Part shown: positions 1 to 26,427 of the stretch, piece by piece
How the letters are laid out: each line of letters opens with the position of its first letter
Numbering within the stretch: the stretch's first letter is position 1
IMG/VR virus record: IMGVR_UViG_3300040961_000088
Coordinates: 1-27,366 of that record
DNA from: a virus
Length of the DNA: 27,366 bases
Reading direction: 5' to 3' (one strand)
The notes under the pieces: generated by a model
The model's database searches: none
What the model saw: the letters and a program-made list of their open reading frames with translations, nothing else
Told to the model about the DNA's origin: nothing
Program-made: the position numbers and the translations under genes

Positions 1-198
1 ATGCCTCACAAATTCACCTTCAAAGAATGGGTCCAGGCGTTCGGAATCAACGCCACGGCAACGCTTTGCAGCGTTTCTGAACGGACTGTATACAACTGGT
101 TAACAGGGCACACCCGGCCCTCTCACGCCAACTGCCTCGTGATCTTGCAGCGGGCCAAGCGCCTCTCTTACGCCGACATCGTAGGGGGTGCGCAGTGA
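1..198 (+). CDS. small helix-turn-helix DNA-binding protein
   Basis: A 65-residue protein starting at the first base of the window, so its promoter is not visible. Residues 14-50 look like a helix-turn-helix: a short helix ending in TATLCSVSERTVYNWLTG, where 'VSERTVYNWLTG' has the shape of a Cro/YdaS-type recognition helix, followed by 'RPSHANCLVILQRAK'. Such proteins commonly act as phage early regulators. Its stop codon overlaps the GTG start of the exonuclease gene (GTGA at 195-198), so the two are probably translated together. No family name can be assigned with certainty. It may be Cro-like, or a transcription regulator of the recombination operon. Confidence 0.6.
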   Translation: MPHKFTFKEWVQAFGINATATLCSVSERTVYNWLTGHTRPSHANCLVILQRAKRLSYADIVGGAQ

Positions 199-1247
199 GC
201 ACAGCCACCCTCCAGACCCCCCACATTTTTGACGGACTGCCTTTGGCATCCCTTGCCCAGCAGGACGACGAAGCCCGCAAAGCCGCCTGGCTGGCCGAGC
301 GCCGGACCTGCATCACCGGCACCGACATTGCGGCCATCTTCGGCCTCAACCGCTTCGCCGGCCCCATCGACGTGTGGCTCTCCAAAAAGGCACCCGTCGC
401 CGTGGAAGCCAACGACGCCATGGAGTTCGGCAACCGCTTTCAGCGCCCGGTGCTGGAGGTCTACTCCGAGCGCGTTGGGATGCCCATCGAGTTCGCAGAC
501 CCTTGGACGCTTCACCGGGTTCCCGGCTTCCCACTCCTCGGGGCCTCGCTTGACGCCCGCTGGATCACCGGCGACCACCGCCCGGTGGACGCCAAGACGG
601 CCGGCTGGAAGTCGAGCGAATGGGGCGAAGCCGGGTCCGACGAATTCCCCACTTCCTATCAACTGCAGCTTGCCGTCCAGATGATGGCCACCGAGACCCA
701 GGTCGCCGATCTGGCGGTCTGTTTCGGCGGCTACGGCGGTCACAAGTTCGCCCGCTACACCATGGTGGCTGACCCAGAAGTGCAGGACGCCATCAGGGAC
801 AAGGCTGCTGACTGGTGGCAGAAACACATCATCGGCGACGTTCCCCCCGAGCCTGACGGTTCCGAAAACTACAGCGAATACCTCAAGGTTCGGTTCGCCC
901 GCTCAACCATGGTCACCAAGCCGGTCACGGCTGAGGTTGCCGAGTGGGCCGCATCGCTTCGGGAGGCCACCGAGCGCCTGAAGGTCATCGAGGGCGAAAA
1001 GGAACGGCTTCAGCAACTCCTCAAAACCTACCTCGGGGAAGCGTCCGCCATCCCCGGCATTTGCACCTGGAAGAACAACAAAAACAGCCTCAAAACCGAC
1101 TGGCAAGCCGCCTTCGGTGATCTGCGGAGCTACGTTCTGGACCCCGCAATTCAAAAGCTCTCCACCCCGCTCGACGCGGTAAGTCACGCCGTCGATTCCA
1201 ACACGCACGACATGCCCGGCGCCCGCGTTTTCAGGCTCGCCAAGTAA
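195..1247 (+). CDS. YqaJ-like (lambda exonuclease family) viral recombinase
   Basis: A 350-residue protein of the YqaJ/lambda-exonuclease family of PD-(D/E)XK nucleases. These enzymes digest one strand of linear double-stranded DNA and hand the 3' overhang to an annealing protein. Visible family features are 'RRTCITGTDIAAIFG' (residues 36-50, the R-x-x-x-I/T-G-S/T-D/E entry motif), 'MEFGNRFQRPVLEVY' (76-90), the acidic residue D120 in GASLDARW, and D132-x-K134 in 'VDAKTA', followed by the 'SYQLQLAVQM' helix. The start is GTG, which overlaps the upstream stop. The recT gene follows after 16 bases, the standard exonuclease-annealase pairing of phage recombination modules. The C-terminal third, beyond about residue 225, looks like a helical extension (ERLKVIEGEKERLQQLL). 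Confidence 0.92.
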   Translation: MSTATLQTPHIFDGLPLASLAQQDDEARKAAWLAERRTCITGTDIAAIFGLNRFAGPIDVWLSKKAPVAVEANDAMEFGNRFQRPVLEVYSERVGMPIEFADPWTLHRVPGFPLLGASLDARWITGDHRPVDAKTAGWKSSEWGEAGSDEFPTSYQLQLAVQMMATETQVADLAVCFGGYGGHKFARYTMVADPEVQDAIRDKAADWWQKHIIGDVPPEPDGSENYSEYLKVRFARSTMVTKPVTAEVAEWAASLREATERLKVIEGEKERLQQLLKTYLGEASAIPGICTWKNNKNSLKTDWQAAFGDLRSYVLDPAIQKLSTPLDAVSHAVDSNTHDMPGARVFRLAK

Positions 1248-1263
1248 CAGGAAAGAGACTCGC

Positions 1264-2205
1264 ATGGCAGATAACAACCAACTCGTAGCCCTCAACAGCG
1301 TCAAGGCCCTGCTGAATGCCAGCAAGGACGCCATCGCTTCCCGCCTCCCGCGTCACCTGACGGCAGACAGAATGCTCAAGGTTGCGCTCACCAGCATCAA
1401 CAAGACCCCCAAGCTTCTGGAGTGCTCCCGCGAAAGCCTCATGATGTCGATCATGCAAGCGGCCGAGTTGGGCCTTGAGCCCGGCGGCGCTCTCGGGGAA
1501 GGCTACTTGATCCCCTACAACTGCAAGGTCAAGGATGCGGACGGAAAAGAGCGCTGGCAGCAGCAATGCCAGTTCATCCCCGGCTATCGCGGCCTGATTG
1601 CCCTTGCCCGCCGCTCCGGGCAAATCGTCAGCCTTGAGGCGCATGTGGTTCACGCCAAAGACACCTTCGCTTGCCAGCTTGGTTTGAACCCTTCCCTCGA
1701 ACACACCCCCGCATGGGAAGAGACCGACCCCGGAGCTCTCCGCTTTGTCTATGCCGTCGCCAAGCTCAAGGACGGCGGGACTCAGTTCGAGGTCATGAGC
1801 AAGGTGCAGGTAGAGGCGATTCGCGGCCGCTCCAAGGCTGGAACTTTTGGCCCGTGGGTCACCGATTACGAGGAGATGGCCCGCAAGACGGTGGTTCGCC
1901 GCCTCTTCAAGTACCTGCCCGTATCGGTCGAGATGGCCCAGGCGTTGGAGGTCCAGGCATCCGCCGAATCCGGCGAGTTCGTGACCTTGGACGGCATCGA
2001 CGAAACCCCGGTGTTCACGGCGACTCAGCCCGTGCCGGAACTGACCGGCGAGACCCAGCCCGCAACCAGCGGCAAAGGCGGGGCCGAGCGGCTGCGGGAT
2101 GCGGTTAAAAGTACCACCAGAACCACAGCGCCAGCCGAAGCCCATCCTGTCACCACGGTCAAGCCGAACGGTCACGACACTGGTGATTCCGAGTACTTCA
2201 ACTAA
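1264..2205 (+). CDS. recT: RecT-family single-strand annealing protein
   Basis: A 313-residue RecT-family protein. RecT coats single-stranded DNA and anneals complementary strands, working with the exonuclease just upstream. Recognisable family segments are 'RMLKVALTSINKTPKLLECSR' shortened here to its core 'ALTSINKTPKLLEC', then 'SIMQAAELGLEPGG', 'GEGYLIPY', 'QCQFIPGYRGLIALARRSGQ' and 'WVTDYEEMARKTVVRRLFKYLP' (core 'EMARKTVVRRLFKYLP'). The last 80 residues or so are low in conservation and rich in T, A and P, as usual for RecT tails. An AAAGAGAC-type ribosome binding site lies just before the ATG. It is part of the plus-strand early operon. Confidence 0.95.
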   Translation: MADNNQLVALNSVKALLNASKDAIASRLPRHLTADRMLKVALTSINKTPKLLECSRESLMMSIMQAAELGLEPGGALGEGYLIPYNCKVKDADGKERWQQQCQFIPGYRGLIALARRSGQIVSLEAHVVHAKDTFACQLGLNPSLEHTPAWEETDPGALRFVYAVAKLKDGGTQFEVMSKVQVEAIRGRSKAGTFGPWVTDYEEMARKTVVRRLFKYLPVSVEMAQALEVQASAESGEFVTLDGIDETPVFTATQPVPELTGETQPATSGKGGAERLRDAVKSTTRTTAPAEAHPVTTVKPNGHDTGDSEYFN

Positions 2206-2241
2206 CCGCAAGCCGAACTGAGACCCGAAAAGAGGTTTGAC

Positions 2242-3408
2242 ATGGCAGCACTCGCGAACAACCTGACCATCTTCGAGGGGCGCACTGACAACGCGCCCCA
2301 ACTCGAAGTGGTAGACGACGGGGAAAGGCTCTCCGTAAACGGACAATTTGCGCTTCGTGACCTTTTCACCACAGAGGGCGGATTGGCCCCGATCATCAGC
2401 GCAATCGAAGACAAGGTGCGGGAGTTTGAACCCGACATGACCACAGCCAAGGGCCGCGCTGAAATCCGGGCAATGGCTCACAAGGTCACCCGCTCAAAGA
2501 CCTACCTTGAAGGCGTCGGGAAGGACGTAGCAGCCGAATACAAGGACTTGCCCCGCCGCATCGACGCCAACCGCAAGATGATGCGCGATAGCCTTGACGC
2601 CCTGGCCGAGCGCACACGCGCCGATCTGACCGCCTACGAGGAGCGCACCAAGGCCATCAGCGACCGGCTGAACAGCATCGACTCCATGCCGGTCATGTAC
2701 GCGCCCTCGACCAGCGCGGAAATCGCCGCGCAGATTGAAACCCTCGTCAACATGCCCCTGACGGCCGAGGCCTGGGAAGGTCTCCTCGATGAGGCATTGA
2801 CCATCACCCACCGCACCATCGCCGCTCTCAGGCAGATGCACACGGAAAAGGTCAGGGCCGAGACCGACGCCGCCGAACTCGCACGGCTCCGGGAGCAAGC
2901 AGCGGAACGTGAGCGCAAGGATGCCGAAGCGCAACGCCTGGCCGACGCGCAAGAGCGGGGCCGTCGTGAAGCCGAGCAGCGGGCCGAGAGTGAGCGGCAA
3001 GCGGCGCTGGGGCGTGAGGCTGAGGCGAACCGGCAAGCAACGCTGGCGCAACAGCAAGCCGAAGAGAGTGAACGCCGCCGGGTGGAATCCGAAGCGCGGG
3101 CCGCACAGGCTGCCATCGACGCCAGAGTGAAGGCCGAGGAAGACGCCGAACGGGCCGCAATCCAAGCCGTGGAGGCCGAGCAGGACCGGCAAGCAGCGGT
3201 GGCGCGCAAGGAAGCCGAAGACAAGGCAGCGCGGGAAGCCAACAAAGAGCACTCCCGCAAGATCAACTCCGAAGCCCTCGAAGGCATCGTCCAGGCCATC
3301 GTAGGCGCAAACACCAGCCTCGACGCTGACCAGATAACAGCGGTCGCCCGCGCCGTCACAGTCGCAATCATCAAGGGCGAAGTTCGCCACACCTCCATCA
3401 CCTACTAA
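2242..3408 (+). CDS. coiled-coil phage protein of the recombination module
   Basis: A 388-residue protein with an alpha/beta N-terminal part (about 1-110) and a long highly charged coiled coil (about 195-335), rich in Ala, Glu, Arg and Gln with repeated 'REAEQRAESERQAA'-like stretches. The N-terminal segment 'TTAKGRAEIRAMAHKVTRSK' with 'RRIDANRKMMRDSLD' resembles a protein commonly found beside recT in temperate phages, which some annotations call DUF1351-like. I regard that link as tentative. Its place between recT and the 3428 gene suggests a role in DNA recombination or replication. AAAAGAGG precedes the ATG. The coiled coil produces long antisense open frames that are not genes. Confidence 0.8.
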   Translation: MAALANNLTIFEGRTDNAPQLEVVDDGERLSVNGQFALRDLFTTEGGLAPIISAIEDKVREFEPDMTTAKGRAEIRAMAHKVTRSKTYLEGVGKDVAAEYKDLPRRIDANRKMMRDSLDALAERTRADLTAYEERTKAISDRLNSIDSMPVMYAPSTSAEIAAQIETLVNMPLTAEAWEGLLDEALTITHRTIAALRQMHTEKVRAETDAAELARLREQAAERERKDAEAQRLADAQERGRREAEQRAESERQAALGREAEANRQATLAQQQAEESERRRVESEARAAQAAIDARVKAEEDAERAAIQAVEAEQDRQAAVARKEAEDKAAREANKEHSRKINSEALEGIVQAIVGANTSLDADQITAVARAVTVAIIKGEVRHTSITY

Positions 3409-3427
3409 CCAGCAAGGAGACCGACAA

Positions 3428-3796
3428 ATGGCAGAAACGACAGTGAAGTGCAAAGAGTATCTCCGCTACCCGTTCACGGAAGAGGAGACGAGGGAAATCG
3501 CTAAGAACCTGGCGCTTTCCGTAACCGCCAAGACGCGCGCCGAGGAAGAGCAGAAATCCGCCCAGGCACAGTTCAAGCAGCGCATCGAGATTGAAATCAC
3601 CCAGATTCAGCGCCTCTCGAACAACATCAACATGGGCTGGGAGATGCGCGAGATTGAGTGCGTCGTCGAGTTCCACAAGCCCCGGCAGGGCGTGAAGCGC
3701 ATCATCCGCCTCGACACTGGCGAGATCGTCCGCGAACAGCAGATGTCCGGCGGCGAACTGCAAGAGAAGCTCTTTCCGGCAAACGCAACCGCCTGA
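3428..3796 (+). CDS. hypothetical phage protein with helical centre
   Basis: A 122-residue protein I cannot assign to a named family. Residues 15-65 are helical and charged (EEETREIAKNLAL, then EEEQKSAQAQFKQRIEIE). The C-terminal part looks like beta strands carrying 'VEFHKPRQGVKRIIRLDTGE'. The ATG has an AAGGAGA ribosome binding site eight bases upstream. It follows the coiled-coil gene by 19 bases and is clearly in the same operon. Similar small proteins sit in the recombination block of other temperate phages. No enzymatic motif is visible. Confidence 0.75.
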   Translation: MAETTVKCKEYLRYPFTEEETREIAKNLALSVTAKTRAEEEQKSAQAQFKQRIEIEITQIQRLSNNINMGWEMREIECVVEFHKPRQGVKRIIRLDTGEIVREQQMSGGELQEKLFPANATA

Positions 3797-3856
3797 CAAC
3801 CGCACTCAACCGGGGCGGTCTACCCGCCGCCCCCATAACCCGCAAGAGGAGGAACG

Positions 3857-3973
3857 GTGGGAACAACGATCACATTACGCGAACACGCCGCCCGGATGAA
3901 CAGCGTGTTGCACCTGACCGCGAAGGCCTCGGCCATACCTCAGGCGGTCACTGTACCAGGGTGTTTCGGCTAG
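3857..3973 (+). pseudogene. 5' fragment of a gene cut by the inversion breakpoint
   Basis: A GTG start at 3857 sits four bases after a strong AAGAGGAGG site (3844-3852). It opens a 38-codon frame beginning VGTTITLREHAARMNSVLHL and ending at a TAG at 3971-3973. It overlaps the 3' end of the minus-strand replication gene by about 100 bases, which is unusual for a real pair. Up to V31 (GTC at 3947-3949) it reads as a plausible N-terminus. If that codon is joined to the minus strand at 6836 the frame continues without a break as LSYASMRLRYPG and onward, giving 164 residues. I therefore read it as the first 31 codons of the gene whose remainder lies at 6435-6839. Confidence 0.6.
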
Positions 3974-4666
3974 GTAGGCACACGCGGCGCGGAAGTCGGG
4001 CAGCCAGCCGGGTTCCTTGAGCCGGGTTTGAATCACCTTCTGGCGGTTGAGCGTGCTCTTGGCCTGGGGGAGCTTGCCCTGGGTGAGTTCATTCCAGATC
4101 GTGACCACCTCGGCAGATTTCACAGCGGCGGCGGTCGATGCAATCGACGAAGGCTCTTGTTCTTTCTCTGGCTCTGGTACAGGACTCTGGCTCTGGACTC
4201 TGGTACAGGACTCTGGCTCTGGTAGTGGCATTTCGTGCGATTCTGTGCGCATTTGTGCGCACGGCTCCTCGTAACGTGCGCACGCTTTCTCCCTTTCCTT
4301 AAGCGAAAGGCGGCGCATCCGAGGCAATTCGCCGTTGGCATACCTCATGCCGTTGCGGGAGAGCTTGTTGTCGGTGGCGTCGTCGCTGTGGATATGCCAG
4401 TCGTGGACAATGAGGCGGTGTTCATCGTTCGCCTCAAGGAAGCCGGACTGCACCAGGGCAAGGACCATGGCCGATGCGTCACCGTCGTAAAACATCTCCA
4501 TGGCTATGTCTTCGTCGGTCATCTTCCCGATAGCGCCCGTCGGGGCCTGTTCGCCCGTTACATGCCAGAGAGATTCGACAATACCGAGAGCGAAGCAAGC
4601 GGGGATGTGCATCAGGTTCCCTAGGCGCCGCGTCTTTCGGTGAGTAAGTGTTCCCCTCAGTGCCAT
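3875..4666 (-). CDS. phage replication initiator-like protein, C-terminus replaced
   Basis: A 263-residue protein. It resembles phage replisome-organiser proteins: an N-terminal winged-helix-like domain (about 1-105, 'GALVQSGFLE'-type wing seen as 'VLALVQSGFLEANDEHRLIV' core 'LVQSGFLEAND', then 'VHDWHIHSDD'), a Pro/Glu/Ser/Gln linker (145-175) and a DnaT-like C-terminal domain beginning at 'VVTIWNEL' and reaching 'PDFRAACAYLAETPWYSD' (to D240). The usual next motif, N-D-R-G/Q-W then A-x-F/I-D-F, is missing. The final 23 residues are antisense to another gene's start. The missing motif is found at 6837-7088 on the other strand. The start is ATG at 4666 in a TGATG overlap with the nuclease gene, with AGGAG upstream. 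As written, the protein is probably impaired. Confidence 0.8.
   Translation of the reverse strand: MALRGTLTHRKTRRLGNLMHIPACFALGIVESLWHVTGEQAPTGAIGKMTDEDIAMEMFYDGDASAMVLALVQSGFLEANDEHRLIVHDWHIHSDDATDNKLSRNGMRYANGELPRMRRLSLKEREKACARYEEPCAQMRTESHEMPLPEPESCTRVQSQSPVPEPEKEQEPSSIASTAAAVKSAEVVTIWNELTQGKLPQAKSTLNRQKVIQTRLKEPGWLPDFRAACAYLAETPWYSDRLRYGRGLRGQVQHAVHPGGVFA
4172..4222 (-). repeat. 25-bp tandem repeat, period 26, in the linker of the replication gene
   Basis: Two identical 25-bp copies (4172-4196 and 4198-4222) built from CTCTGG units lie one base apart. The 26-base period is not a multiple of three, so the second copy is read in a different frame. The same DNA gives PEPESCT in one copy and QSQSPVPEPE in the other. 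Both frames are rich in P, E, S and Q, so the linker stays disordered. Confidence 0.85.
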
Positions 4667-5148
4667 CAGCGTGCTCCTGTCAAGAGTTCCATCAAGTCAT
4701 CCGGTGACCAGATAATTCCCACCAGCGCGCCGGCCTCGGCCATGGTGTCGAGAAAGGCAAGCTGCTCATCGGATGGTTTGCCCGGTGCGGCCTTTTGGAT
4801 CAACCGCCCTGTATTGGGCGATCTGGTCAGCCACTCAGGCGCTTTGACTTCGATGTAGAGCGCCCGGCCGCCGGGGAGAGTGCCCAGGATGTCGGACAGG
4901 CCAGCGGAGCAAGCGCCCTGTGTGCCGCCCTTCATGATTGAGGCGGTGTTGCGGACTCCAGCGCTTTTGAGCATCCTGCAAGCCCTGCCACGTAGCTTTG
5001 CGCCCCCGGCATCAACGGCCAGGGCGGGGATGCGATGCAGGTTGAGGGTGGCGAGTGCGTTCTTCTGGACGGTGGCCTCGGGTACGCATCCGAGGAGATA
5101 GGCGTCGTTGTAGCGGGAGCGGTCGAAGGTGTCGCGATAAACCCTCAT
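4666..5148 (-). CDS. VRR-NUC domain nuclease
   Basis: A 160-residue protein with a VRR-NUC (PD-(D/E)XK superfamily) core. The visible motifs are 'SAGLSDILGTLPGGRALYIE' with D86, then E100-V-K102, and 'GKPSDEQLAFLDTMAEAGA' with the family's Q and a hydrophobic helix, ending in 'VGIIWSPDDL'. Such phage nucleases are thought to act on branched or flap DNA during replication and recombination. The start is chosen at ATG 5148, which forms an ATGA overlap with the upstream stop (5147-5145). A GTG at 5175 would add nine residues but lies inside the previous gene. The stop overlaps the next start (TGATG at 4666-4668). Confidence 0.85.
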   Translation of the reverse strand: MRVYRDTFDRSRYNDAYLLGCVPEATVQKNALATLNLHRIPALAVDAGGAKLRGRACRMLKSAGVRNTASIMKGGTQGACSAGLSDILGTLPGGRALYIEVKAPEWLTRSPNTGRLIQKAAPGKPSDEQLAFLDTMAEAGALVGIIWSPDDLMELLTGAR

Positions 5149-6110
5149 GCCGTCACCGCCGGGAACTCTTTCCACTCGCGGCCGTCGAGCATGGCGCCAG
5201 CGGCGTCCTTGCCGAGCCGATAGACGTCAGGCGCATCGTCGCGGTGCAACTCTTCGCTCTGACGGGGAGTCAGCGAATCGTAAAGCCAGCGGCCATTCCA
5301 CCAGGTTGCAGTCCGCTCGGCGCGGGAAGGCAGAGAACCGGCGCATGCCCCAGGTGCCCACTCGCCCCATTGCTTGAAAAAGAAAGGTACCCCAGCGGTT
5401 TGGCACTGATCACGCAAAGAGCGCGCCCATTTAGGAAGCATCGGCCGTGCATTCGGCCCGCTTTCGCCTCCGCAGATCACCCAGTCGAGCCGCCCATGCT
5501 CCGGGCCGTCGCTTACTTCGCCGTGAATCGAGTGGTAGATGTCGCCTTCGTCGAGCGCGCTGAAGTGCCATTCATGGTCATCTGGCGCTGTGATGCGGGT
5601 CAGGTCCACCGGCCCAACCATCGGCTCGACGCTCACGCCGTGGACCGCCGCTGGTATCGAGAGCAGGATCGGGATGCGCAGATCGGCCATCGGCTGATTC
5701 TCGGCAGTGACCATGAGCCAGACGTTCGGGTAGCCGGTGCCCCAGTCGGCCGGCAGACATGCCGCGATGCGCTCGGGGCGCTTGGTGCAAAGCTGGTAGG
5801 TTAGGTTCGGCGTCTGCCGGATGATGGCCCAGGCTTCAGCGCGCCAGGCGTCGGCCTCTTCGATGAAAAAGTCAGACCACGAATCGACGAACACGCGGTT
5901 TATGTGCCCGTACTTTTCGCGGTTTTGTGCCCATTTCAGCGGGGCGTTGAAGGTCGCCGCGGCGGAACGAACCACCACATCGGGGGTCTGTCCATACCGC
6001 TTTTTGTCGGTGAACATGTAGCAGTTCTTGCAGCCGGGCGAGACCTTATGGCAGCCCTGCCAGCAGTTCCACGTTGCATCGGTCCAGGCAATTGCGGTGC
6101 TAGCGCCCAT
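5145..6110 (-). CDS. phage Gp37/Gp68 family protein (DUF5131)
   Basis: A 321-residue protein matching the Gp37/Gp68 (DUF5131) family: 'STAIAWTDATWNCWQGC' at the N-terminus, then C20-x6-C27-x2-C30 in 'CHKVSPGCKNCYM', 'FVDSWSDFF', 'QLCTKRPER', 'VSVEPMVGPV', 'WVICGGESG' and 'PFFFKQWGEW'. The three cysteines resemble a radical-SAM-type iron-sulfur site. The biochemical role of the family is not established as far as I know. The start at ATG 6110 fits the family beginning and has GGGGGTGG upstream. Fourteen more residues upstream (to 6152) look non-homologous. It overlaps the preceding gene by 11 bases. No TcmP-like partner gene is visible nearby. Confidence 0.9.
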   Translation of the reverse strand: MGASTAIAWTDATWNCWQGCHKVSPGCKNCYMFTDKKRYGQTPDVVVRSAAATFNAPLKWAQNREKYGHINRVFVDSWSDFFIEEADAWRAEAWAIIRQTPNLTYQLCTKRPERIAACLPADWGTGYPNVWLMVTAENQPMADLRIPILLSIPAAVHGVSVEPMVGPVDLTRITAPDDHEWHFSALDEGDIYHSIHGEVSDGPEHGRLDWVICGGESGPNARPMLPKWARSLRDQCQTAGVPFFFKQWGEWAPGACAGSLPSRAERTATWWNGRWLYDSLTPRQSEELHRDDAPDVYRLGKDAAGAMLDGREWKEFPAVTA

Positions 6111-6435
6111 CGGCCACCCCCAGGAAGAGCAGCGACTTCCAGACCTGCACATTGCGCCGGCGCGCAGATACCCGGCTCGACTTACGGAACCGGCTTGTCT
6201 GGGTGATGAGTCCGTTCCCCGCGGCGCGGCGGAATGCGGCCCCTACTGCGTTCGGGTGCAGAAAGTTGGTGACGGCGACGGCCTCAAGGATGGTCCAGAC
6301 CTCATCGGACGTAATCTCGGGCTGTTGCGCGGCGGCGGTGGCGATGGCGATGTAGCAGCGGCTGAATTCGGCGGTTGCGATGACCTTCTCAATGCCTTCG
6401 TCGCGATAGAACGCGGATAGTTGGGCAGACAACAT
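6100..6435 (-). CDS. putative winged-helix phage protein
   Basis: A 111-residue protein starting MLSAQLSAFYRDEGIEKV. The C-terminal half ('AVGAAFRRAAGNGLITQTSR' core 'FRRAAGNGLI', then 'RRRNVQVWKSL') has the layout of a winged helix: a recognition helix followed by basic wing residues. The same arrangement occurs in small proteins next to phage replication genes. The start is ATG 6435-6433, in a TGATG overlap with the upstream stop, with GAAAGGAGA eight bases before. A longer frame to 6465 is inside the previous gene. Function unknown; DNA binding is inferred from the basic C-terminus. Confidence 0.7.
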   Translation of the reverse strand: MLSAQLSAFYRDEGIEKVIATAEFSRCYIAIATAAAQQPEITSDEVWTILEAVAVTNFLHPNAVGAAFRRAAGNGLITQTSRFRKSSRVSARRRNVQVWKSLLFLGVADGR

Positions 6436-6821
6436 CAGCGGTCTCCTTTCAGGAAGTAGCCGCATTTGCAGCCTTCAACGGTGCAGCGGCATGGTTGGCC
6501 CGTCTCGTTGCGGGCGTGCTGTTTGATGTGGTGGCCGCAATAGGCCTTGTCGCACTGACATGCGACGATTTCACGCATGAGGCGGAAGGTGCGGGGCGCG
6601 TAGGTGTCGGGCTCGAACTGGCGGGGCATGCCCATCTCTTCGATGGCGGTTTCTTCAAGCTCGGCCCACTCGGCAATGAGCAGCGGCCAGGCTGAATTCT
6701 TCACCGCGCTCAGGAATTCAAAGGCGGGCTCACGCATCCACGGGTGATCTTTCAGCAGCCGGATACATGCGCCAAGCTCAGCGGGCTTTGTCGGTGCGCT
6801 GCCAGGGTAGCGGAGGCGCAT
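6435..6821 (-). CDS. Cys-rich hypothetical protein, 5' end lost at the inversion breakpoint
   Basis: The readable frame from ATG 6821 encodes 128 residues (from a GTG at 6848, 137). Neither start has a ribosome binding site. Residues up to about 70 are helical ('ELGACIRLLKDHPW', 'AEWAELEETAIEEMG'). The C-terminal 45 carry eight cysteines and a pair of histidines: C-x-C-x4-C-x-H-H, then C-x-C-x4-C-x-C, consistent with metal binding. The frame is open up to the breakpoint codon GTC at 6839-6837 and joins in frame to the fragment at 3857-3949. The intact protein would then be 164 residues with a strong ribosome binding site. Family not recognised. Confidence 0.65.
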   Translation of the reverse strand: MRLRYPGSAPTKPAELGACIRLLKDHPWMREPAFEFLSAVKNSAWPLLIAEWAELEETAIEEMGMPRQFEPDTYAPRTFRLMREIVACQCDKAYCGHHIKQHARNETGQPCRCTVEGCKCGYFLKGDR

Positions 6822-6836
6822 CGACGCATAAGACAG

Positions 6837-7088
6837 GACACCGGGCACAACGACCGGCAGTGGGTTGCAAACATCGACTTCGCGTTACAGGCCGGCAAGG
6901 CTACCGAACTGGCAGAGAAGGCCACACAGCAAGCACCGCAGAGTGCAGGAGCAATGAACCATGGGAACGTCCAGCATCACCGAACTGCTACCGACCAGCG
7001 CTACATCGATCAAATTGCCGCCCGTGATGAACGGCGGGCGCGTGAGGCCACCGAACACCCCGAGGCCGCTTTGCCGGTCCTGCAATAG
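6837..7088 (+). pseudogene. C-terminal fragment of the replication protein
   Basis: A plus-strand frame from D-T-G-H at 6837 to a TAG at 7086-7088 encodes 'TGHNDRQWVANIDFALQAGK', then ATELAEKA and a polar tail ending LPVLQ. The NDRxW-x2-A-x-I/F-DF pattern is the hallmark C-terminal motif of the replication proteins to which the minus-strand gene at 3875-4666 belongs, and that gene lacks it. There is no start codon with a ribosome binding site here. Joined after codon 240 of that gene it yields 'ETPWYSDTGHNDRQW', exactly the expected layout, and a 322-residue protein. It overlaps the start of the helicase-loader gene. Confidence 0.75.
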
Positions 7089-7857
7089 CAAGCCCTCGAT
7101 GAGCGAACCAGAGCCCGAGTTTGAGGGTCTGTGCTGGGGCTGTTGGGAAGACGCGCAAGCCATCCGGTATGCCGAGACGGAAGCCAAGCGCATCGAGACC
7201 GAACTTGAATCCCAGGTCACCGAGGATCTTCGCCACGTCTGCGGCCTAGCCTCCCGCGAGTGCAAAGCCGACTGGCAAAAGGTGCCCGAAGCCATCAAGC
7301 GGGCCATGCCCCGCCCTATCCTGCTTGCGCTCAGCGGCGGCAACGTGCCCGCAACCGGCTTCGGGTTGGGTGCTGACACCGGCTCAGGCAAGACGATGGC
7401 GCTGGCGGCGATCCTGCGCGGATTCCAGCGGGCCTATCGGAAGGCTTACGCCATCCGGCTGGTGGAAGAGACCCGGCGCCACGGTAAACAGGCCGACGTG
7501 AGGTTTCAACATCAGGCCGTGTGGCTGAGTTGGCCCGACAGCGTCACCGCCATCCGGCTCCATGCCATCGACGGCATAGCCGAGCAGATGCTTGAGCGGG
7601 CTGAGTCCGCGCCGCTGCTGATCCTCGATGACCTCGGCCGGGAGCGCATCAAGGGCGCTTACGTGGACGACTTCGCCGCATCGCAGCTTGACCGCCTCGT
7701 GAATCATCGCTACCGCGAAGAACTGCCGACGCTCTGGACCTCAAACCTGCCCGAAATCGACCTGACCAGCATCTATGGCGCCGCGCTGGTCTCACGGCTC
7801 ACCGAGGACGCGCCCCTGATCTGGCTCGACAAGCTGCCGAGCATGAGGTTGAAATGA
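6961..7857 (+). CDS. DnaC/IstB-like ATPase, putative helicase loader
   Basis: A 298-residue AAA+ ATPase. Walker A is GADTGSGKT at residues 137-145 and Walker B is LLILDDLG at 219-226. The downstream 'LDRLVNHRYREELPTLWTSN' with its sensor-1-like T-S-N and 'ALVSRLTEDA' matches DnaC/IstB-type loaders, which place the replicative helicase on origin-bound initiator. The N-terminus holds a four-Cys cluster (C38, C41, C58, C61), a possible zinc finger. The ATG at 6961 has AGGAG nine bases upstream. ATG 7027 is a possible alternative that shortens the overlap with the replication fragment. Placement directly after the replication protein's C-terminus is the expected initiator-loader order. Confidence 0.88.
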   Translation: MGTSSITELLPTSATSIKLPPVMNGGRVRPPNTPRPLCRSCNSKPSMSEPEPEFEGLCWGCWEDAQAIRYAETEAKRIETELESQVTEDLRHVCGLASRECKADWQKVPEAIKRAMPRPILLALSGGNVPATGFGLGADTGSGKTMALAAILRGFQRAYRKAYAIRLVEETRRHGKQADVRFQHQAVWLSWPDSVTAIRLHAIDGIAEQMLERAESAPLLILDDLGRERIKGAYVDDFAASQLDRLVNHRYREELPTLWTSNLPEIDLTSIYGAALVSRLTEDAPLIWLDKLPSMRLK

Positions 7858-8657
7858 CCGCTTTCACGTACATGTCCATGTGTTCCGGCATAGAAGCGGC
7901 GTCTGAGGCGTGGTCTCCGCTCGGTTGGCGGCCGACCGTCCTTTCCGAGATTGAGGACTTCCCGCGCAGTGTTCTGATTCAGCGTCAAGGAGCAGAGGAT
8001 ATGCGCTACGCACGGGCCGAGGTTGGCCCCGGCCTCTGGGGCGACTTCACCGCCCTCCGGGTCCGTCACCTTCGCCGGTTCGGTGTCCCGATGCCGGATG
8101 TTCTCGTGGCCGGAACGCCCTGCCAAGCATTTTCGGTCGCCGGTTTGCGTAAATCCCTTCAGGATGACCGCGGAAATCTAACCCTTTCCTTCGTGAGGCT
8201 AGCCAATGCAATTGACAATGTTCGACTTCGAGAGGGCAGTAAACCCCTCACTGTTGTCTGGGAAAACGTACCCGGAGTGCTCTCCGTTGGAGACAACGCC
8301 TTCGGTTGCTTCCTCGCCGCGCTGGTGGGAGCAGACTCCCCACTCGTTCCGCCAGCAGGACTCCGCTGGACAAACGCAGGTTTGGTTACTGGACCCAGGC
8401 GAACCGCAACGTGGATCGTCAAAGACGCTCAACATTTCGGCGTGGCCCAGCGACGGGAGCGCGTGTTCGTTATGGCAAGTGCTGGAGACCCAGCCTATCC
8501 CGCGCAAGTATTTTTTGAGCGCAAAAGCCTGCATGGGCATCATCCGCCGCGCCGGGAAGAGGGGCAAGGCTTTACCCACGATGTTGCTCCGAGCCTTATG
8601 GGCAGTGGTCGAGGCGTGGAACGGGGGGGGGGAAGAGCAGAGGACAAGATCCAGTAA
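7854..8657 (+). CDS. C5-cytosine DNA methyltransferase, truncated by frameshift
   Basis: A 267-residue frame carries the catalytic motifs of C5-cytosine methyltransferases: motif I 'MSMCSGIEAASEAW' near residue 8, the catalytic PCQ of motif IV in 'GTPCQAFSVAGLRKS', motif VI ENVPG and motif VIII 'AQRRERVFV'. Phage enzymes of this type usually run on through a long variable recognition region to motif X. Here the frame ends soon after a run of ten G at 8623-8632, and motifs IX and X are absent. The GRGVERGG before the run would continue as KSRGQDPV if the run were 8 or 11 bases. The ATG overlaps the loader's TGA (ATGA at 7854-7857). The protein is probably inactive as written. Confidence 0.85.
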   Translation: MTAFTYMSMCSGIEAASEAWSPLGWRPTVLSEIEDFPRSVLIQRQGAEDMRYARAEVGPGLWGDFTALRVRHLRRFGVPMPDVLVAGTPCQAFSVAGLRKSLQDDRGNLTLSFVRLANAIDNVRLREGSKPLTVVWENVPGVLSVGDNAFGCFLAALVGADSPLVPPAGLRWTNAGLVTGPRRTATWIVKDAQHFGVAQRRERVFVMASAGDPAYPAQVFFERKSLHGHHPPRREEGQGFTHDVAPSLMGSGRGVERGGGRAEDKIQ

Positions 8658-8769
8658 TTCCGGTATTCCAGAGGTCTCAGGAACTCTCGGGGCGCACAAA
8701 ACCGGGGGATGGGGAGCAGACCTCGATACGACCGGCTGTTTCATTCCCACAGGTTGTGGGTGCTCTTAG
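8206..8769 (+). CDS. overlapping ORF within the methyltransferase gene
   Basis: A 187-residue frame, shifted +1 relative to the methyltransferase and lying mostly inside it. It starts at ATG 8206 with GAGG eight bases upstream. The segments 'PSLLSGKTYPECSP', 'ACSLWQVLETQPIPRKYFLS' and 'GIIRRAGKRGKALP' match a small phage protein I know from other genomes (typical core CSLSQVLE then ILRRAEKRGKxLP) that is encoded across a methyltransferase gene. The two frames pair as expected: RRAGKRGKALP in one, PPRREEGQGF in the other. Its function is unknown. Beyond about residue 145, past the G run, the frame probably reads methyltransferase-type variable sequence and not its own. Confidence 0.65.
   Translation: MQLTMFDFERAVNPSLLSGKTYPECSPLETTPSVASSPRWWEQTPHSFRQQDSAGQTQVWLLDPGEPQRGSSKTLNISAWPSDGSACSLWQVLETQPIPRKYFLSAKACMGIIRRAGKRGKALPTMLLRALWAVVEAWNGGGEEQRTRSSNSGIPEVSGTLGAHKTGGWGADLDTTGCFIPTGCGCS
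8623..8632 (+). repeat. run of ten G at a frame break
   Basis: Ten consecutive G inside the methyltransferase gene. Nine, or 8/11, would join its 5' part to one of the two alternative downstream frames that keep methyltransferase-like sequence. Slippage or a read error here would change the protein. Confidence 0.9.
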
Positions 8770-8980
8770 CGACGGCGCTCATTTCGGGGGGGCAGAATGG
8801 TCAGGACGCCTATTCTGGCCGAATCATCCCTTGCTCATTCGGTGACGTGCCATCAGGTCAAGGGCGGCGACCCGACAACCGACAACTATGTGGTAACCGG
8901 GGGTTTCTTTGACCAGCCAACGCATAGTCTCCGGGCCGATGGATTCGACGCCTCTGAAGACGGGACCGGGCGCGGAACAC
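8658..8980 (+). pseudogene. frameshifted remnant of the methyltransferase variable region
   Basis: No single frame is open, but pieces typical of the variable region of phage C5-methyltransferases appear in turn in different frames: 'VSGTLGAHKTGGWGADLD', then 'VVGALSDGAHF', then 'GQNGQDAYSGRIIP' (after a run of seven G at 8786-8792), then 'SLAHSVTCHQVKGG' and finally 'GFDASEDGTGRGTP'. At least four frame changes are needed within about 320 bases. The sequence ends abruptly near 8980 where tail-gene sequence begins. Motifs IX and X are never reached. This is either a decayed gene or a stretch of base-calling errors. Confidence 0.65.
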
Positions 8981-8981
8981 C

Positions 8982-9218
8982 ATTGCCACCGGCAACAACA
9001 TCGATCTGAACAACCCACTCATGGGCTCGGCTACCATCTTCAAGCTCAACGCCTTCAACACCTACGGCGGGAAGCAGTTCGGCTACACACTCGCCGCAGT
9101 CATCTTCCCGAAACTCTCCCTGGCGTCCAAGCAGGACGATCACACCGAGATCGATTTGGAATTCCAGGCGTTCGCCGACTCTCTCGACAACGTCATCAAC
9201 GTCTACACCGCACAGTAA
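8982..9218 (+). pseudogene. C-terminal fragment of a major tail (tube) protein
   Basis: A frame running to TAA at 9218 encodes about 78 residues: 'TIATGNNIDLNNPL', 'FKLNAFNTYGGKQFGYTLAA' and 'LEFQAFADSLDNVINVYTAQ' (core 'LEFQAFADSLDNVINVY'). Beta-rich sequence of this kind, followed at once by tail-chaperone genes, fits the end of a siphovirus tail-tube protein. These proteins are normally well over 150 residues, and the N-terminal part is absent. An ATG at 9021 has no ribosome binding site. The frame starts inside sequence that belongs to the methyltransferase, so the junction near 8980 is a fusion of unrelated genes. The tube assignment is by position and shape, not by a diagnostic motif. 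Confidence 0.55.
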
Positions 9219-9278
9219 CCCGGTGCGCGCCGTCTGAGAGGGCGGCGCGTTCCTATCTCAGCCATGGAGGCCGAAAGC

Positions 9279-9611
9279 ATGAGCACCGTCACGATTCAAG
9301 GCACCGAGTACGATCTTCAACCCTTCACCGCCGGGCAGTTGCGCCACCAGGCGTCTGCCAAGTTGGCAGCTATCGACGAAATCAACGGCCAGCTTCAGGC
9401 CGGCACAATCTCACCCATGAAGGCCATGCCTGAGATGGTTGGTCACTGCTGCGATCTAGTTCACCTTTCGCTGTCGAACAAGTACCCCGATCTGACCTTG
9501 GAAGCGGTCGAGACGATGCCCTTTGCGGAGATCCAGAAAGCCGTCATCGGCGTTGCGGAGGTCTCCGGACTCAAGGGGGAAGCGAAGCCTCAGCCGAAAA
9601 AGAGCCGCTGA
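9279..9611 (+). CDS. tail assembly chaperone (gpG-like)
   Basis: A 110-residue protein, 'MSTVTIQGTEYDLQPFTAGQ' followed by a helical middle and a basic tail 'KPQPKKSR'. It lies between the tube fragment and the tape measure, the normal position of the tail chaperone that wraps the tape measure before tube assembly. The ATG at 9279 is preferred because GGAGG lies eight bases upstream; an ATG at 9264 is upstream of that site. The 3' end carries AAA-AAG codons just before the stop, where ribosomes can slip into the next frame. Confidence 0.75.
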   Translation: MSTVTIQGTEYDLQPFTAGQLRHQASAKLAAIDEINGQLQAGTISPMKAMPEMVGHCCDLVHLSLSNKYPDLTLEAVETMPFAEIQKAVIGVAEVSGLKGEAKPQPKKSR

Positions 9612-9832
9612 ACTGGGGCAGGTTGTACGGGCTTCTCATCACCGCAACCGGATGGACGGCGCGCACTGTCGATGCGACTCCATGGCCGGACGTTTTGGAC
9701 CTTCTGGATTATTGGAAGGTCAGCCCGCCGGTTCATGTGCTGGTGCGGGCTTACATGGGCGGCGGAAGTGAAGAAAAGGCAGTAACCCCGATGACTGAGG
9801 CCGAGCTTGCGGCTGGCATCGTCGGATTCTAG
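9599..9832 (+). CDS. tail chaperone extension made by -1 frameshift (gpT-like)
   Basis: A 77-codon frame, one base back from the gpG-like gene, beginning 'EPLNWGRLYGLLITATGW' and ending AAGIVGF. It has no good start codon (a TTG at 9623 without a Shine-Dalgarno site) but is open across the end of the upstream gene. Moving back one base on the AAA AAG codons (tract GAAAAAG) gives a fused chaperone of about 184 residues. Lambda G/GT and many other tailed phages use exactly this arrangement. 'DVLDLLDYWKVSPPVHVL' is of the usual type for the extension. The slip site is not a perfect heptamer, since the P-site would pair imperfectly. Confidence 0.7.
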   Translation, partial: KEPLNWGRLYGLLITATGWTARTVDATPWPDVLDLLDYWKVSPPVHVLVRAYMGGGSEEKAVTPMTEAELAAGIVGF

Positions 9833-9840
9833 GAGGCACC

Positions 9841-12459
9841 ATGGGCGCGGGCGATAATCCCGATCCAATTCAAGTAACGATTACCGCCCAAATCCAGGGC
9901 CTCATGGATGGGCTGAGCGATGCCACCGCCGGCGTGAAGACTGCCACGTCTGAGATGGCCGACTCGTTCTCTGGAGTGAAGGGCGAAAGCGCTGATGCGT
10001 TCGAGGAAATGGCGGGGCAATCCCGTGAAGCCGCCGAAAGCATGGAGGGCGATTTCTCCCGCACAGAGGCCCGCCACGCTGCCCACATGCTGGGGATGAA
10101 CCGCGCCGTCGGTGGCTTCGTTGCCACGCTCCCCGGCGTCGGTCAGGCCTTGTCGATGGCCTTTGCACCGTTGGCGATCATGGAGATGATTGAGTGGATT
10201 GCCAAGGGCGTCGAAAAGCTGATGGAGTTCCGGGAGGCCGGGAAAAAGCTGACTCAAGACCAGGGGGATTTTGAGACGGCCGTAAACAACTCGTTCAACT
10301 CTCTGGACGAGAAGCTGATTCAGGCCGAGAAAAAGACCGACGAACTCGCGGGCGACCATTTAGGCGCTCTACAGAAGGAACTCCAGCTTATCGACATGAC
10401 GTCGATGAAGGATCTGGTCTCCGAGTTCGACTTGGTCGAAAAGGCGGCGGATAAGGTCTTTGCTGACCTGTCTAGCCACTGGTACACGTTCGGGAAGGGC
10501 TCAGACGGCGCGAAACACGCCATGGATGAGTTCAAGGGGCAGTACGACAATCTGCTTTCGCAGGGCAGGGATAAGGACGCGAGCAACCTGCTCTCGGGCA
10601 CCTTGCAGACAGCCTATGACGTTCTGGCGGCTCAAGAGACCATCGCCAAGAACCGCAAGAGCGGCGATGGCCCGACGGATGAGAGCCACGCGGCAGAGCA
10701 GGTGCTTGCCACCCACAAGGTGAGCCTGACCGTCTCTGAGGATGAAGTTGCGGCACAGAAGCTGCTAGTCGAAAGCCTGGGTCAACAGGTGATGGCTCAG
10801 GAGACGATTAACCAGCTAAAGACGACGGACGTCACGAACGCCACGACTCAGGAGCACAAGAAAGGCAACAGCGCGGCTCAGGCGCAAGCGGAAGCGCGGC
10901 TGAAGGGCATCGAGCAGGGAAACGCCGCTGCCTTGGAGGCTGAAGACAAGGGCGCCGATGAGGCCCTGAAGTTGCAGGAAGCCGCCATCAAGCAAGAAGT
11001 TGCGCTTGCCATCGAGGGCGGTCAACTCAAGGCCGCGGCTGAGCTCGCCGCGCTGCCGAAGTACATCTCCACTCAGCAGTCTTTCACCCAGGCCAAGTTG
11101 ACGGCTCTGGACAAGGACCACGCGGCGCAATTGAAGGCCAACGCGGACGAGCGGGCGATCTTGGAGGCGGGGAATTCGGGCGGCCAGAACAACGCCAAGC
11201 TGATCGAGAACGCCAACCAAAAAGCGGCTCTCGAATCGAAGTACCAGACCGAGCGCACGTCGATCATCGCCGCCGGCAAAGCGGCCGTCATGCAACTGGA
11301 GACGGAAGAGGCCAATCAGCGCACAGAACTTGCCCACAAGGGAGTCGAGGCGCGCGTTGCCCTGGCCGAGGAAGAGAGCAAGCGGAAGGAGAGCGCCGCC
11401 AGAGACGCCGCCGCCGAAAGCATCAAGCGGACTCAGCAGAATGCACAGGAAGAATTGAAGGCCGTCGAGGTAAGCCTTCAGCGCGGGCTCATCACCCGTC
11501 AGGCAGCGTACAACGCAAAGAGGGCCATCTTAGAGCGGGAAAAAGCAGACGTTGACGCGGCCTACGATGGTGAAAAGAGCAAACTGGAGGGGCTGATTGC
11601 TGCCTACCAGGCTCAGCAAGCCACCCTCAGCGCAACCGATCCGGAGTACAAGAAGCTCACAGCGGACATCAACCAGCTTCAGGCCGCTATCGCCAAGGCG
11701 CATTCGTCTGAGGTCGAGTTCGGGTCAAAGATGGACACCGACGTCAAGGCCCTGAGCAACGACTCCCGAACGATGACCACCTCGTGGACCCAGTTCTTCA
11801 CCAAGTTCCAGGTGGATGCCAAACAGGCCACCGACACTCTGCGCACCGGCCTTCAGGCGTCCATTACCCAGATGAACACTGGGCTTGCGAACGCCTTCAG
11901 CAAGAGCATAGTGGAGGGGAAGAGCTTCGGTCAGGCCATGCGTCAGGTGACCGGCCAGATCCTTGAGCAGTTCATCAGCATGTGCGTGAACATGGCCTTG
12001 CAGTGGGCTGAGAGTCAACTGATGATGGCTATCCTTGGAAAGGCGACTCAGGCCGCTTCAGGGATTACGCAGGTGACGAGCAACGCCGCTGTCGGCGCTT
12101 CTGCGGCTATGGCATCCACATCCGCGATTCCCATCGTCGGGCCGGGGCTAGCTCCCGCTGCGGGCGCTGCGATGTTCGCCGGTATTCTTGGCACTTACGG
12201 GCCGCTGGCATCGGCGGCCGGCGGCTGGGAGCGCGTCCCGAATGACACCTTATCGATGCTGCACAAGAACGAGCAGGTTCTCCCGGCCAGCTACGCGCAA
12301 GGCCTGAGAGACTTGGTTTCCGGGGGCACCAGCGGCGGCGGAATCACGCACATGGAACCGCACTTCCACGGTGTCATCGACGCCAAGAGTTTCTTTCAGC
12401 AGAATCAGGGCCACCTTGTCTCGACGATCAAGGACGCGGTGGGCAATCGACGGACTTAG
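9841..12459 (+). CDS. tail tape measure protein
   Basis: An 872-residue protein, the longest tail gene before the fibre. It is mostly helical, charged and Ala/Gln/Lys/Glu-rich with long coiled-coil stretches (about 290-620), as expected for the molecule that sets tail length. A hydrophobic segment lies near residues 87-120 ('VGGFVATLPGVGQALSMAFA' region), and a second Ala/Gly-rich hydrophobic region near 740-790. The end carries the family-like 'GGWERVPNDTLSMLHKNEQV' followed by LPASYAQGL. An AGGAGG site lies before the ATG. The stop overlaps the stop of the convergent gene at 12456 by three bases. Confidence 0.9.
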   Translation: MGAGDNPDPIQVTITAQIQGLMDGLSDATAGVKTATSEMADSFSGVKGESADAFEEMAGQSREAAESMEGDFSRTEARHAAHMLGMNRAVGGFVATLPGVGQALSMAFAPLAIMEMIEWIAKGVEKLMEFREAGKKLTQDQGDFETAVNNSFNSLDEKLIQAEKKTDELAGDHLGALQKELQLIDMTSMKDLVSEFDLVEKAADKVFADLSSHWYTFGKGSDGAKHAMDEFKGQYDNLLSQGRDKDASNLLSGTLQTAYDVLAAQETIAKNRKSGDGPTDESHAAEQVLATHKVSLTVSEDEVAAQKLLVESLGQQVMAQETINQLKTTDVTNATTQEHKKGNSAAQAQAEARLKGIEQGNAAALEAEDKGADEALKLQEAAIKQEVALAIEGGQLKAAAELAALPKYISTQQSFTQAKLTALDKDHAAQLKANADERAILEAGNSGGQNNAKLIENANQKAALESKYQTERTSIIAAGKAAVMQLETEEANQRTELAHKGVEARVALAEEESKRKESAARDAAAESIKRTQQNAQEELKAVEVSLQRGLITRQAAYNAKRAILEREKADVDAAYDGEKSKLEGLIAAYQAQQATLSATDPEYKKLTADINQLQAAIAKAHSSEVEFGSKMDTDVKALSNDSRTMTTSWTQFFTKFQVDAKQATDTLRTGLQASITQMNTGLANAFSKSIVEGKSFGQAMRQVTGQILEQFISMCVNMALQWAESQLMMAILGKATQAASGITQVTSNAAVGASAAMASTSAIPIVGPGLAPAAGAAMFAGILGTYGPLASAAGGWERVPNDTLSMLHKNEQVLPASYAQGLRDLVSGGTSGGGITHMEPHFHGVIDAKSFFQQNQGHLVSTIKDAVGNRRT

Positions 12460-12707
12460 TCGGATGGGGCGATGCAGAGGCTCGTGTACTTTGCGTGAGC
12501 CAAGCAGTCAAGGTATGCAGCCGCCCGCCGCGCCCGCTCGTGTTCCGCTTCCCGCCGCTGGTTTGCTGCCGACTGAAGCGTCCAGCCGATCCACGCCAGC
12601 AAGACAACGACGGCTAAAGCAAACCAAGGCTTCCAGGACCGGGGCTTTTCTTCCTCGGGCTCTAACTCGTAATCAGACGTGGAATCTTCGAGGGACAGCA
12701 TCGACAT
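12456..12707 (-). CDS. small single-pass membrane protein (cargo gene)
   Basis: An 83-residue protein on the strand opposite to the tail genes. An acidic N-terminus (LEDSTSDYELEPEEEKP) is followed by one transmembrane segment 'WFALAVVVLLAWIGWTL' and then a basic amphipathic helix 'NQRREAEHERARRAAAYL'. The start at ATG 12707 has AAGGAG eight bases upstream; a longer frame to 12758 is unsupported. Its orientation and position right after the tape measure mark it as an inserted cargo ('moron') gene. Such single-pass proteins often act on the host envelope, for example in superinfection exclusion, but nothing here proves that. Confidence 0.65.
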   Translation of the reverse strand: MSMLSLEDSTSDYELEPEEEKPRSWKPWFALAVVVLLAWIGWTLQSAANQRREAEHERARRAAAYLDCLAHAKYTSLCIAPSD

Positions 12708-12821
12708 GGTGGTACTCCTTGCCCTTTCATCTTCACCGCACCAGGTGCTGGGCGTCAAAGGTTCGCCTCAGTTTCGCGCATAAAACCCCAACCCACACAA
12801 CAAGATGCAACCCACAGGACA

Positions 12822-12850
12822 TTTACAAAACACGGCAGATGCGCTATCTT
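12822..12850 (+). promoter_or_regulatory. sigma-70-type promoter for the 12864 gene
   Basis: A -35 TTTACA (12822-12827), a 17-base spacer and a -10 TATCTT (12845-12850). The transcript would begin near 12857, only a few bases before ATG 12864, giving an almost leaderless message for this cargo gene. Confidence 0.5.
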
Positions 12851-12863
12851 GCAGGCTGAAGCC

Positions 12864-13115
12864 ATGCCGCCAAAATACGCCGCAACCCGACGCCGCCTGT
12901 TGGCCCGAGAGAAGGAACTCCTCAAAGAGCTTGAGGACGTTCGAACCTCGATTGCGGCTTGCAAGCAAGCGATGGAATGCCCAGCGCCCCTGATGAAGGA
13001 ATTCAAGGAAGAGGGGCGTATCACCTCGGGGCGTTCCGCCAGCGCAAGGGCTCTCCATTTGCGTGATGCGCGTCTGGGAAGCACGGACCCCGATCCCGAC
13101 CGCAAGCCCAACTGA
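12864..13115 (+). CDS. small hypothetical cargo protein
   Basis: An 83-residue basic protein, 'MPPKYAATRRRLLAREKELL', with a helical N-terminal half (REKELLKELEDVRTSIAAC) that could form a coiled coil, and a polar tail ending DPDPDRKPN. A frame from TTG 12849 is possible, but ATG 12864 suits the promoter spacing better. Its stop lies six bases from the convergent hicB stop. It is outside the tail operon in function, with its own promoter and neighbours that are cargo genes. Family not recognised. Confidence 0.55.
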   Translation: MPPKYAATRRRLLAREKELLKELEDVRTSIAACKQAMECPAPLMKEFKEEGRITSGRSASARALHLRDARLGSTDPDPDRKPN

Positions 13116-13121
13116 CCGCGC

Positions 13122-13538
13122 TTAGACCGCCCGAATCTCCAGATTCTTCCCCAGCACCTTCAGCGCCCCGGCGATACCGTCAATCTTCGACGTGTGGCGC
13201 CAGTCAATCAGCCTGTTCACTTCCTGCCTGGTCATCTTCAGCCGCCGCGCCAACTCGGCCGGCCTGACCTTCTGAGCCGCCATTTCATTCAAGAGCAGGA
13301 TCTTCGCGGCGTAGCTGGCCGGGAGTTCTACCACATGCTGGCCGCGCTTCAGTTTCGACGGCGCGGGAATGGGTAGACCCTCCTCGATGTAGTAATCCAA
13401 GGCTGATTCCAGAACGTCTGCTGCATGGAGCAGAGCGTCTTCCACGTCTTCACCCTGGGTGATTGCCTCGGGGATGTCGGGGAAGGTGACAACGTAGCCG
13501 CCTTCCTTTTGCAGTGCGAGATGTGCCGGATAGCGCAT
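13122..13538 (-). CDS. hicB: HicB-family antitoxin
   Basis: A 138-residue HicB antitoxin. The N-terminal half is the partial RNase-H-like HicB fold: 'MRYPAHLALQKEGGYVVTFP' then 'DIPEAITQGEDVEDAL' and 'ESALDYYIEEG'. Residues about 92-125 ('RPAELARRLKMTRQEVNRLI') are a helix-turn-helix, which binds the operon's own operator. It neutralises HicA and represses transcription. The ATG at 13538 is five bases after AGGAGG, and the gene starts eight bases after the end of hicA, in the hicA-hicB order. Confidence 0.93.
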   Translation of the reverse strand: MRYPAHLALQKEGGYVVTFPDIPEAITQGEDVEDALLHAADVLESALDYYIEEGLPIPAPSKLKRGQHVVELPASYAAKILLLNEMAAQKVRPAELARRLKMTRQEVNRLIDWRHTSKIDGIAGALKVLGKNLEIRAV

Positions 13539-13546
13539 GTTTCCTC

Positions 13547-13723
13547 CTATTTGAGCCCTAGCTGCTTTTTGATGCCTTCGACCAGCCCGGTCTTAAGTTC
13601 CTTCGAGTGCATCGGCAGGAAGGATGTCTTTCCGTTCAGCTTCACCTTCAGATGGGAGCCTTTCGCGCCCTCGAATGTCGCTCCCTGTGCCGTCAGCCAC
13701 CGTTTGAACTCCGTGCTCTTCAT
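13547..13723 (-). CDS. hicA: HicA-family toxin (mRNA interferase)
   Basis: A 58-residue protein beginning MKSTEFKRWLTAQGATFEGA and containing AKGSHLKVKLNGK, with the conserved catalytic histidine in G-S-H, then SFLPMHSKELKTGLVEGIKK and a C-terminal QLGLK. This is the double-stranded-RNA-binding-like fold of HicA, which cleaves mRNA. It is complete at the usual length. The ATG at 13723 has no Shine-Dalgarno site; the promoter places transcription start at or next to the start codon. It is the upstream partner of hicB and probably stabilises the prophage in its host or acts against other phages. Confidence 0.93.
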   Translation of the reverse strand: MKSTEFKRWLTAQGATFEGAKGSHLKVKLNGKTSFLPMHSKELKTGLVEGIKKQLGLK

Positions 13724-13729
13724 GTATCC

Positions 13730-13758
13730 AATGTACGCAATATTGCTTACACTGTCAA
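13730..13758 (-). promoter_or_regulatory. hicAB promoter
   Basis: On the minus strand, -35 TTGACA (13758-13753), 17-base spacer and -10 TACATT (13735-13730). The expected start is about 13723, the A of the hicA ATG, so the message would be leaderless. The operator palindrome lies in the spacer. Confidence 0.75.
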
Positions 13759-13773
13759 GAGAAATGTAAGCAA
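13732..13773. promoter_or_regulatory. probable HicB operator, three TGTAAGCAA-type half-sites
   Basis: A near-perfect 20-bp palindrome, TGTACGCAATATTGCTTACA (13732-13751), lies between the -35 and -10. A third half-site TGTAAGCAA (13765-13773) lies just upstream of the -35. Such sites suit autorepression by the HicB helix-turn-helix. Confidence 0.65.
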
Positions 13774-13839
13774 AAATGAATACTATTTTCCTTTTCCCGT
13801 TTCGCGGTGTGGGAAGGCGGTTTTTGGCCCCCGTTTCGC

Positions 13840-13857
13840 TCTAAACTGTGTCTAAAC
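13840..13857 (+). repeat. TCTAAAC direct repeat upstream of the DUF2460 gene
   Basis: TCTAAAC occurs at 13840-13846 and 13851-13857, eleven bases apart, i.e. about one helical turn. It lies 40-57 bases before the start of the distal tail operon and could be a regulator site. Confidence 0.35.
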
Positions 13858-13896
13858 GGCCACACAACGCGGCCAAAATGATACAGAGGGCAGCGA

Positions 13897-26202: not shown

Positions 26203-26355
26203 CTAAACACATGTCACGATAACCTTTTAAGTGCATCGGTGAGGGGAGTCACGCTTCTTCGGCCCGGTGGCCCCTATAGTGAAGTCATCTTTCCAGACAG
26301 TTCATATCCCCATGGGCCACCTTCAAAGAAATCTCTTTTATTTTCCGGGGAAGTA

Positions 26356-26383
26356 TTGACAATTCAGACCAATGTGCTAGAGT
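26356..26383 (+). promoter_or_regulatory. integrase promoter
   Basis: A -35 TTGACA (26356-26361), 16-base spacer and -10 TAGAGT (26378-26383) with an extended TGC before it. Start of transcription about 26390. Confidence 0.65.
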
Positions 26384-26427
26384 CACCAATGAAGCGCGCT
26401 TTCAATGGGCTAAGGAAGGTAGCAGCA

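Follow-up and report, generated by a model that had tools for sequence, protein, structure and literature searches.

A strong ribosome binding site before a 38-codon frame exposes an inverted segment, and a nearby deletion, in the record of a probably defective prophage

A viral record of 27,366 nucleotides (IMGVR_UViG_3300040961_000088; hereafter the window, i.e. the whole stretch of DNA that was analysed) contains what looks like an excellent gene start with almost no gene behind it. The sequence AAGAGGAGG (3844-3852) and a spacer AACG (3853-3856) precede a GTG codon at 3857, and the frame opened there is only 38 codons long, with its stop at 3971-3973. An earlier note on this DNA had ranked the site among the best ribosome sites in the window, and a count over both strands bears this out: the entire window has only six cases of AGGAGG 3-9 nt before an ATG, GTG or TTG codon. 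The short frame (3857-3973) overlaps an open reading frame (ORF) on the minus strand (3875-4666), as the note had also described. Its explanation was that the gene at 3857 had been cut off, and that the short piece was the missing start of a Cys-rich protein encoded at 6435. What, then, has separated this start from the rest of its gene?

In the window, the Cys-rich ORF occupies 6435-6848 on the minus strand and encodes 137 amino acids. When the two halves proposed in the earlier note were joined and viral contigs were searched with the product, a continuous protein of about 166 residues, including the first 31, was found in five records (L011, L012, L013, L014 and L015; L011 is the same contig as L002, the relative compared below). 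The alignments span residue 31 across the join in all five, and the 31-residue front end is conserved in each of them; the protein of L015 is one residue shorter than 166. No homologue was seen that starts at 6821 or 6848 and lacks the N-terminal part, and the Cys-rich ORF of the window matches the continuous protein from residue 34 onward. Positions 3857-4357 of L002 translate as a single ORF. Joined across the window, the coding sequence consists of 31 codons (3857-3949) and a Thr codon, after which it continues backwards from 6837. Its product has a native length of 166 residues, where 164 had been proposed, with the true breakpoints at 3952-3954 and 6838-6840. The front of the gene, consisting of 31 codons and two bases, is located at 3857-3951 on the plus strand, and its remainder, with a zinc-ligand-like Cys/His end and a match to phrog_1229, at 6435-6840 on the minus strand. 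The ribosome binding site and its spacer (3844-3856, plus strand) belong to this cut gene; in the relatives L011-L014, AAGAGGAGG or AAGAGGGGG stands at the same spacing before the start of the Cys-rich gene. The window by itself would also agree with coincidence, that is, with a stray ribosome site that serves no gene and an unrelated Cys-rich gene that has a start of its own. The five continuous orthologues, with the N-terminal part included, rule this out and leave it practically no probability.

The Cys-rich gene is found in two halves because positions 3952-6840 of the window are inverted, so that the rest of the gene runs from 6840 to 6435 on the opposite strand. The closest relative found among viral contigs, IMGVR_UViG_3300017988_000949 (L002), aligns with the window by blastn in three blocks, namely, 1-3954 in the plus, 3952-6840 in the minus and 6838-8978 in the plus orientation, the first two both at 100% identity. 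Re-inverting 3952-6840 makes window positions 1-8978 letter-for-letter the same as L002 over all 8,978 bases. The inversion therefore comprises 2,889 bp and is exactly reciprocal, with no gain, loss or substitution relative to L002. The left breakpoint (3952-3954, TGT) and the right breakpoint (6838-6840, ACA) share only these 3 bp, and about 6% of random pairs of sites would share at least three bases. No inverted repeats were found at the two breakpoints, where similarity was at background in windows of 30, 60 and 150 bp, and neither site has any dyad symmetry. The bases TGT are not conserved at this site either, being CGT or CAT in L012, L014 and L015.

Four relatives whose aligned parts are about 71-97% identical in DNA sequence (L003, L004, L013 and L015) are uninverted at both junctions, and L005 is uninverted at the one junction that it covers; this is the sole orientation in every other record with these junctions. 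The 23- and 24-mers that span the inverted junctions are absent from other viral contigs. The recognisable early-region genes around the minus-strand block (3875-6848) read on the plus strand. One identical contig, L010 (sample 3300014657), starts at native position 6854, 14 bp past the breakpoint; this may be chance, or it could hint at mixed orientation in that sample.

The other end of the inverted segment lies within a second gene, for an O-like replication initiator. Its native form has 320 residues (L002:6126-7088 is one ORF), and alignment shows it continuous through the join in L002, L003 and L004. In the window, 237 native residues are followed by about 26 unrelated ones in the truncated minus-strand gene (3875-4666; PHROG 9474/345), and the cut-off C-terminal part, corresponding to native residues 239-320, remains on the plus strand at 6841-7088. 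The phrog_345 match of the native protein reaches residue 264, across the break (7.5e-11), whereas that of the window version stops at residue 241 (4.2e-4). Between this gene and the rest of the Cys-rich gene, the inverted segment carries, all on the minus strand, a VRR-NUC-like endonuclease (4666-5175; phrog_93, 1.2e-10, with PF08774 below the cut-off), a DUF5131 protein (5145-6152; PF07505, 3.4e-77; phrog_2045) and a 121-amino-acid phage ORF of unknown function (6100-6465; phrog_27658, 3.3e-05). Because the relatives are uninverted, and because both proteins and the profile match are continuous through the joins in the native form, the alignments indicate that the inverted state is the derived one and that it breaks the Cys-rich and replication initiator genes. 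Within the initiator linker there is also a short direct repeat, CTCTGGTACAGGA, at 4172-4222 with 13- and 26-nt spacing, which codes for a PEPESCTRVQSQSPVPEPE stretch; it is possibly an iteron-like origin embedded in the gene itself, like the one in lambda O.

The inversion is not the only difference from otherwise identical records. A second contig, IMGVR_UViG_3300014658_000034 (L111), is identical to window positions 8977-18369, and upstream of 8977 it diverges; its sequence there and the end of L002 overlap by 883 bp (100%). Compared with L002 and L111 together, the window is missing 11,621 bp at 8977/8978, 2.1 kb beyond the inversion, with a 2-bp overlap (AC); a blastn 'mismatch' at 8979 is a mere extension past this junction. 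The lost part takes in the 3' portion of the C5 cytosine methylase region and the start of a tail gene. Profile searches of it gave candidates for the large terminase, the portal and the protease; it probably also held a capsid gene, judged from position and sequence with no Pfam hit, and a small terminase. The deletion junction occurs in no other viral contig. If the record is right, a prophage of this predicted gene content cannot form particles alone. Taken by itself, the deletion could be either real or an artefact.

The methylase frame is broken at two poly-G tracts (8623-8632 and 8786-8792). The first tract counts 10 G and the second 7 G in the window, in L002 and in L010; in the relative L004 the counts are 7 and 9. 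Because the frame is interrupted at tracts that differ between records, the sequences suggest that the methylase may be phase-variable via slipped-strand changes.

At exactly 27,366 bases, the record runs from an ATG to the stop codon that closes a tyrosine integrase gene (26239-27366, by profile search). In L109, a record of the relative L004, the window's left-end gene is followed by a gene that we take, from reading its sequence, to be holB (DNA polymerase III delta-prime). Because of these ends and of this neighbourhood, the window looks like a provirus trimmed at gene ends. The holB product of L109 shares 86% identity with a protein from a genome of the Acidobacteriaceae, and we infer that the host of this prophage copy is a soil bacterium of that family. 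No copy of the prophage turned up when 250 Acidobacteriaceae genomes were searched with the window DNA, and no tRNA was found near the prophage ends. A DNA search of a phage collection gave weak RecT and DUF5131 matches only and no close relative, and the DUF5131 protein had only distant homologues (33-51% identity) among genome contigs. The 904-residue tail protein contains, in the 19028-20356 region, many 30-nt (10-residue) repeats of the 'TITAAQIAAGT' type, and part of this region is without a match in the relative G004.

How did a segment of 2.9 kbp come to be turned round? One conceivable answer is a programmed switch, in which a recombinase of the prophage or the host flips the segment to and fro, turning the Cys-rich protein and the initiator on and off. 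The perfectly reciprocal event would suit such a switch, as would the tyrosine integrase of the phage and the start of L010 so close to the breakpoint, if both orientations were present in that sample. In phage Mu (G segment, Gin) and phage P1 (C segment, Cin), a segment of about 3 kbp is likewise found in opposite orientations in phages that are otherwise identical. Those systems, however, have inverted-repeat sites, a serine invertase beside the segment and alternative gene versions. Here the sites have 3 bp in common, their inverted similarity is no better than random, a profile search revealed no invertase among the neighbouring genes (only the integrase), no alternative gene versions are present, and the flipped state breaks the genes at both ends, both breakpoints being inside genes. 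The single orientation in all relatives also stands against a switch. Because inverted repeats and dyads are lacking and the site bases vary between relatives, a site-specific invertase is unlikely, and we give a programmed inversion very little credence; the particular form of it in which flipping would reversibly disable the initiator and so keep the prophage silent fares just as poorly.

A more serious alternative is that both rearrangements are chimeric joins, made when an intact prophage in the samples was amplified or assembled. The window has no substitution relative to L002 or L111 in 18.4 kbp, and two low-homology joins with 2-3 bp overlap, found in no other record, stand in one contig. 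Two large rearrangements with zero substitutions in 18,369 comparable base pairs are odd for natural decay and fit an amplification or assembly artefact too. In multiple displacement amplification, most chimeras join sites <10 kbp apart in inverted orientation, with 2-21 nt of overlap (PMC1855051), and in these respects the inversion resembles them. However, they arise by a mechanism that yields a single, non-reciprocal junction with an intervening deletion (PMC1855051), whereas the two junctions of the inversion are reciprocal, fall at exactly the same bases and involve no loss. Nor does the window contain Ns or any repeat of a length that could mislead an assembler. The exact reciprocity of the inversion makes a simple chimera or an assembly error less likely, and we consider an artefactual origin of the two rearrangements improbable, though clearly more probable than a switch. 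The inversion itself is probably real, because exact reciprocity is hard to obtain by amplification chimerism and there is no repeat to confuse an assembler.

We therefore favour, with a probability of roughly 70%, a recent illegitimate inversion and deletion in a prophage that is now defective, the 38-codon ORF being the front of a split phage gene. The absence of the inversion and deletion junctions from other viral contigs counts against this explanation. The rearrangements would have taken place in a cell: two double-strand breaks were most likely rejoined illegitimately and nearly free of homology (3 shared bp), giving the 2,889-bp inversion and splitting two genes of the early or replication region, those for the Cys-rich protein and the O-like initiator; the packaging and head genes of the same prophage would have been lost by the 11.6-kb deletion, with 2 shared bp. 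The outcome would be a recently inactivated (cryptic) prophage in an Acidobacteriaceae host. End-joining is the mechanism that we infer, since near-homology-free joining would account for the inversion, and the deletion junction, with its 2 bp, agrees with it. Genes for Ku, an end-joining protein, are present in three of the eight nearest genomes tested and were not found in the other five, among them the genome that carries the closest holB.

In its gene content the window resembles known cryptic prophages, being an apparent provirus that has an integrase, RecT/YqaJ and tail genes and has lost its structural and packaging module, with genes cut by rearrangements that show 2-3 bp overlap. Unlike those prophages, it has accumulated no substitutions and has a known intact counterpart at 100% identity, which makes the damage either very recent or artefactual. 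We regard the case as a commonplace rearrangement of a defective prophage, with an artefact as the less likely alternative; it is no new kind of system. For the phage lineage, gene order, gene starts and genome length should not be taken from this IMG/VR record. More generally, a genome rearrangement can be recognised from the raw sequence alone when a strong ribosome site is left stranded before a short ORF. If the inversion is real, the record would be a snapshot, nearly free of mutations, of how a prophage was inactivated in an uncultured host of the Acidobacteriaceae.
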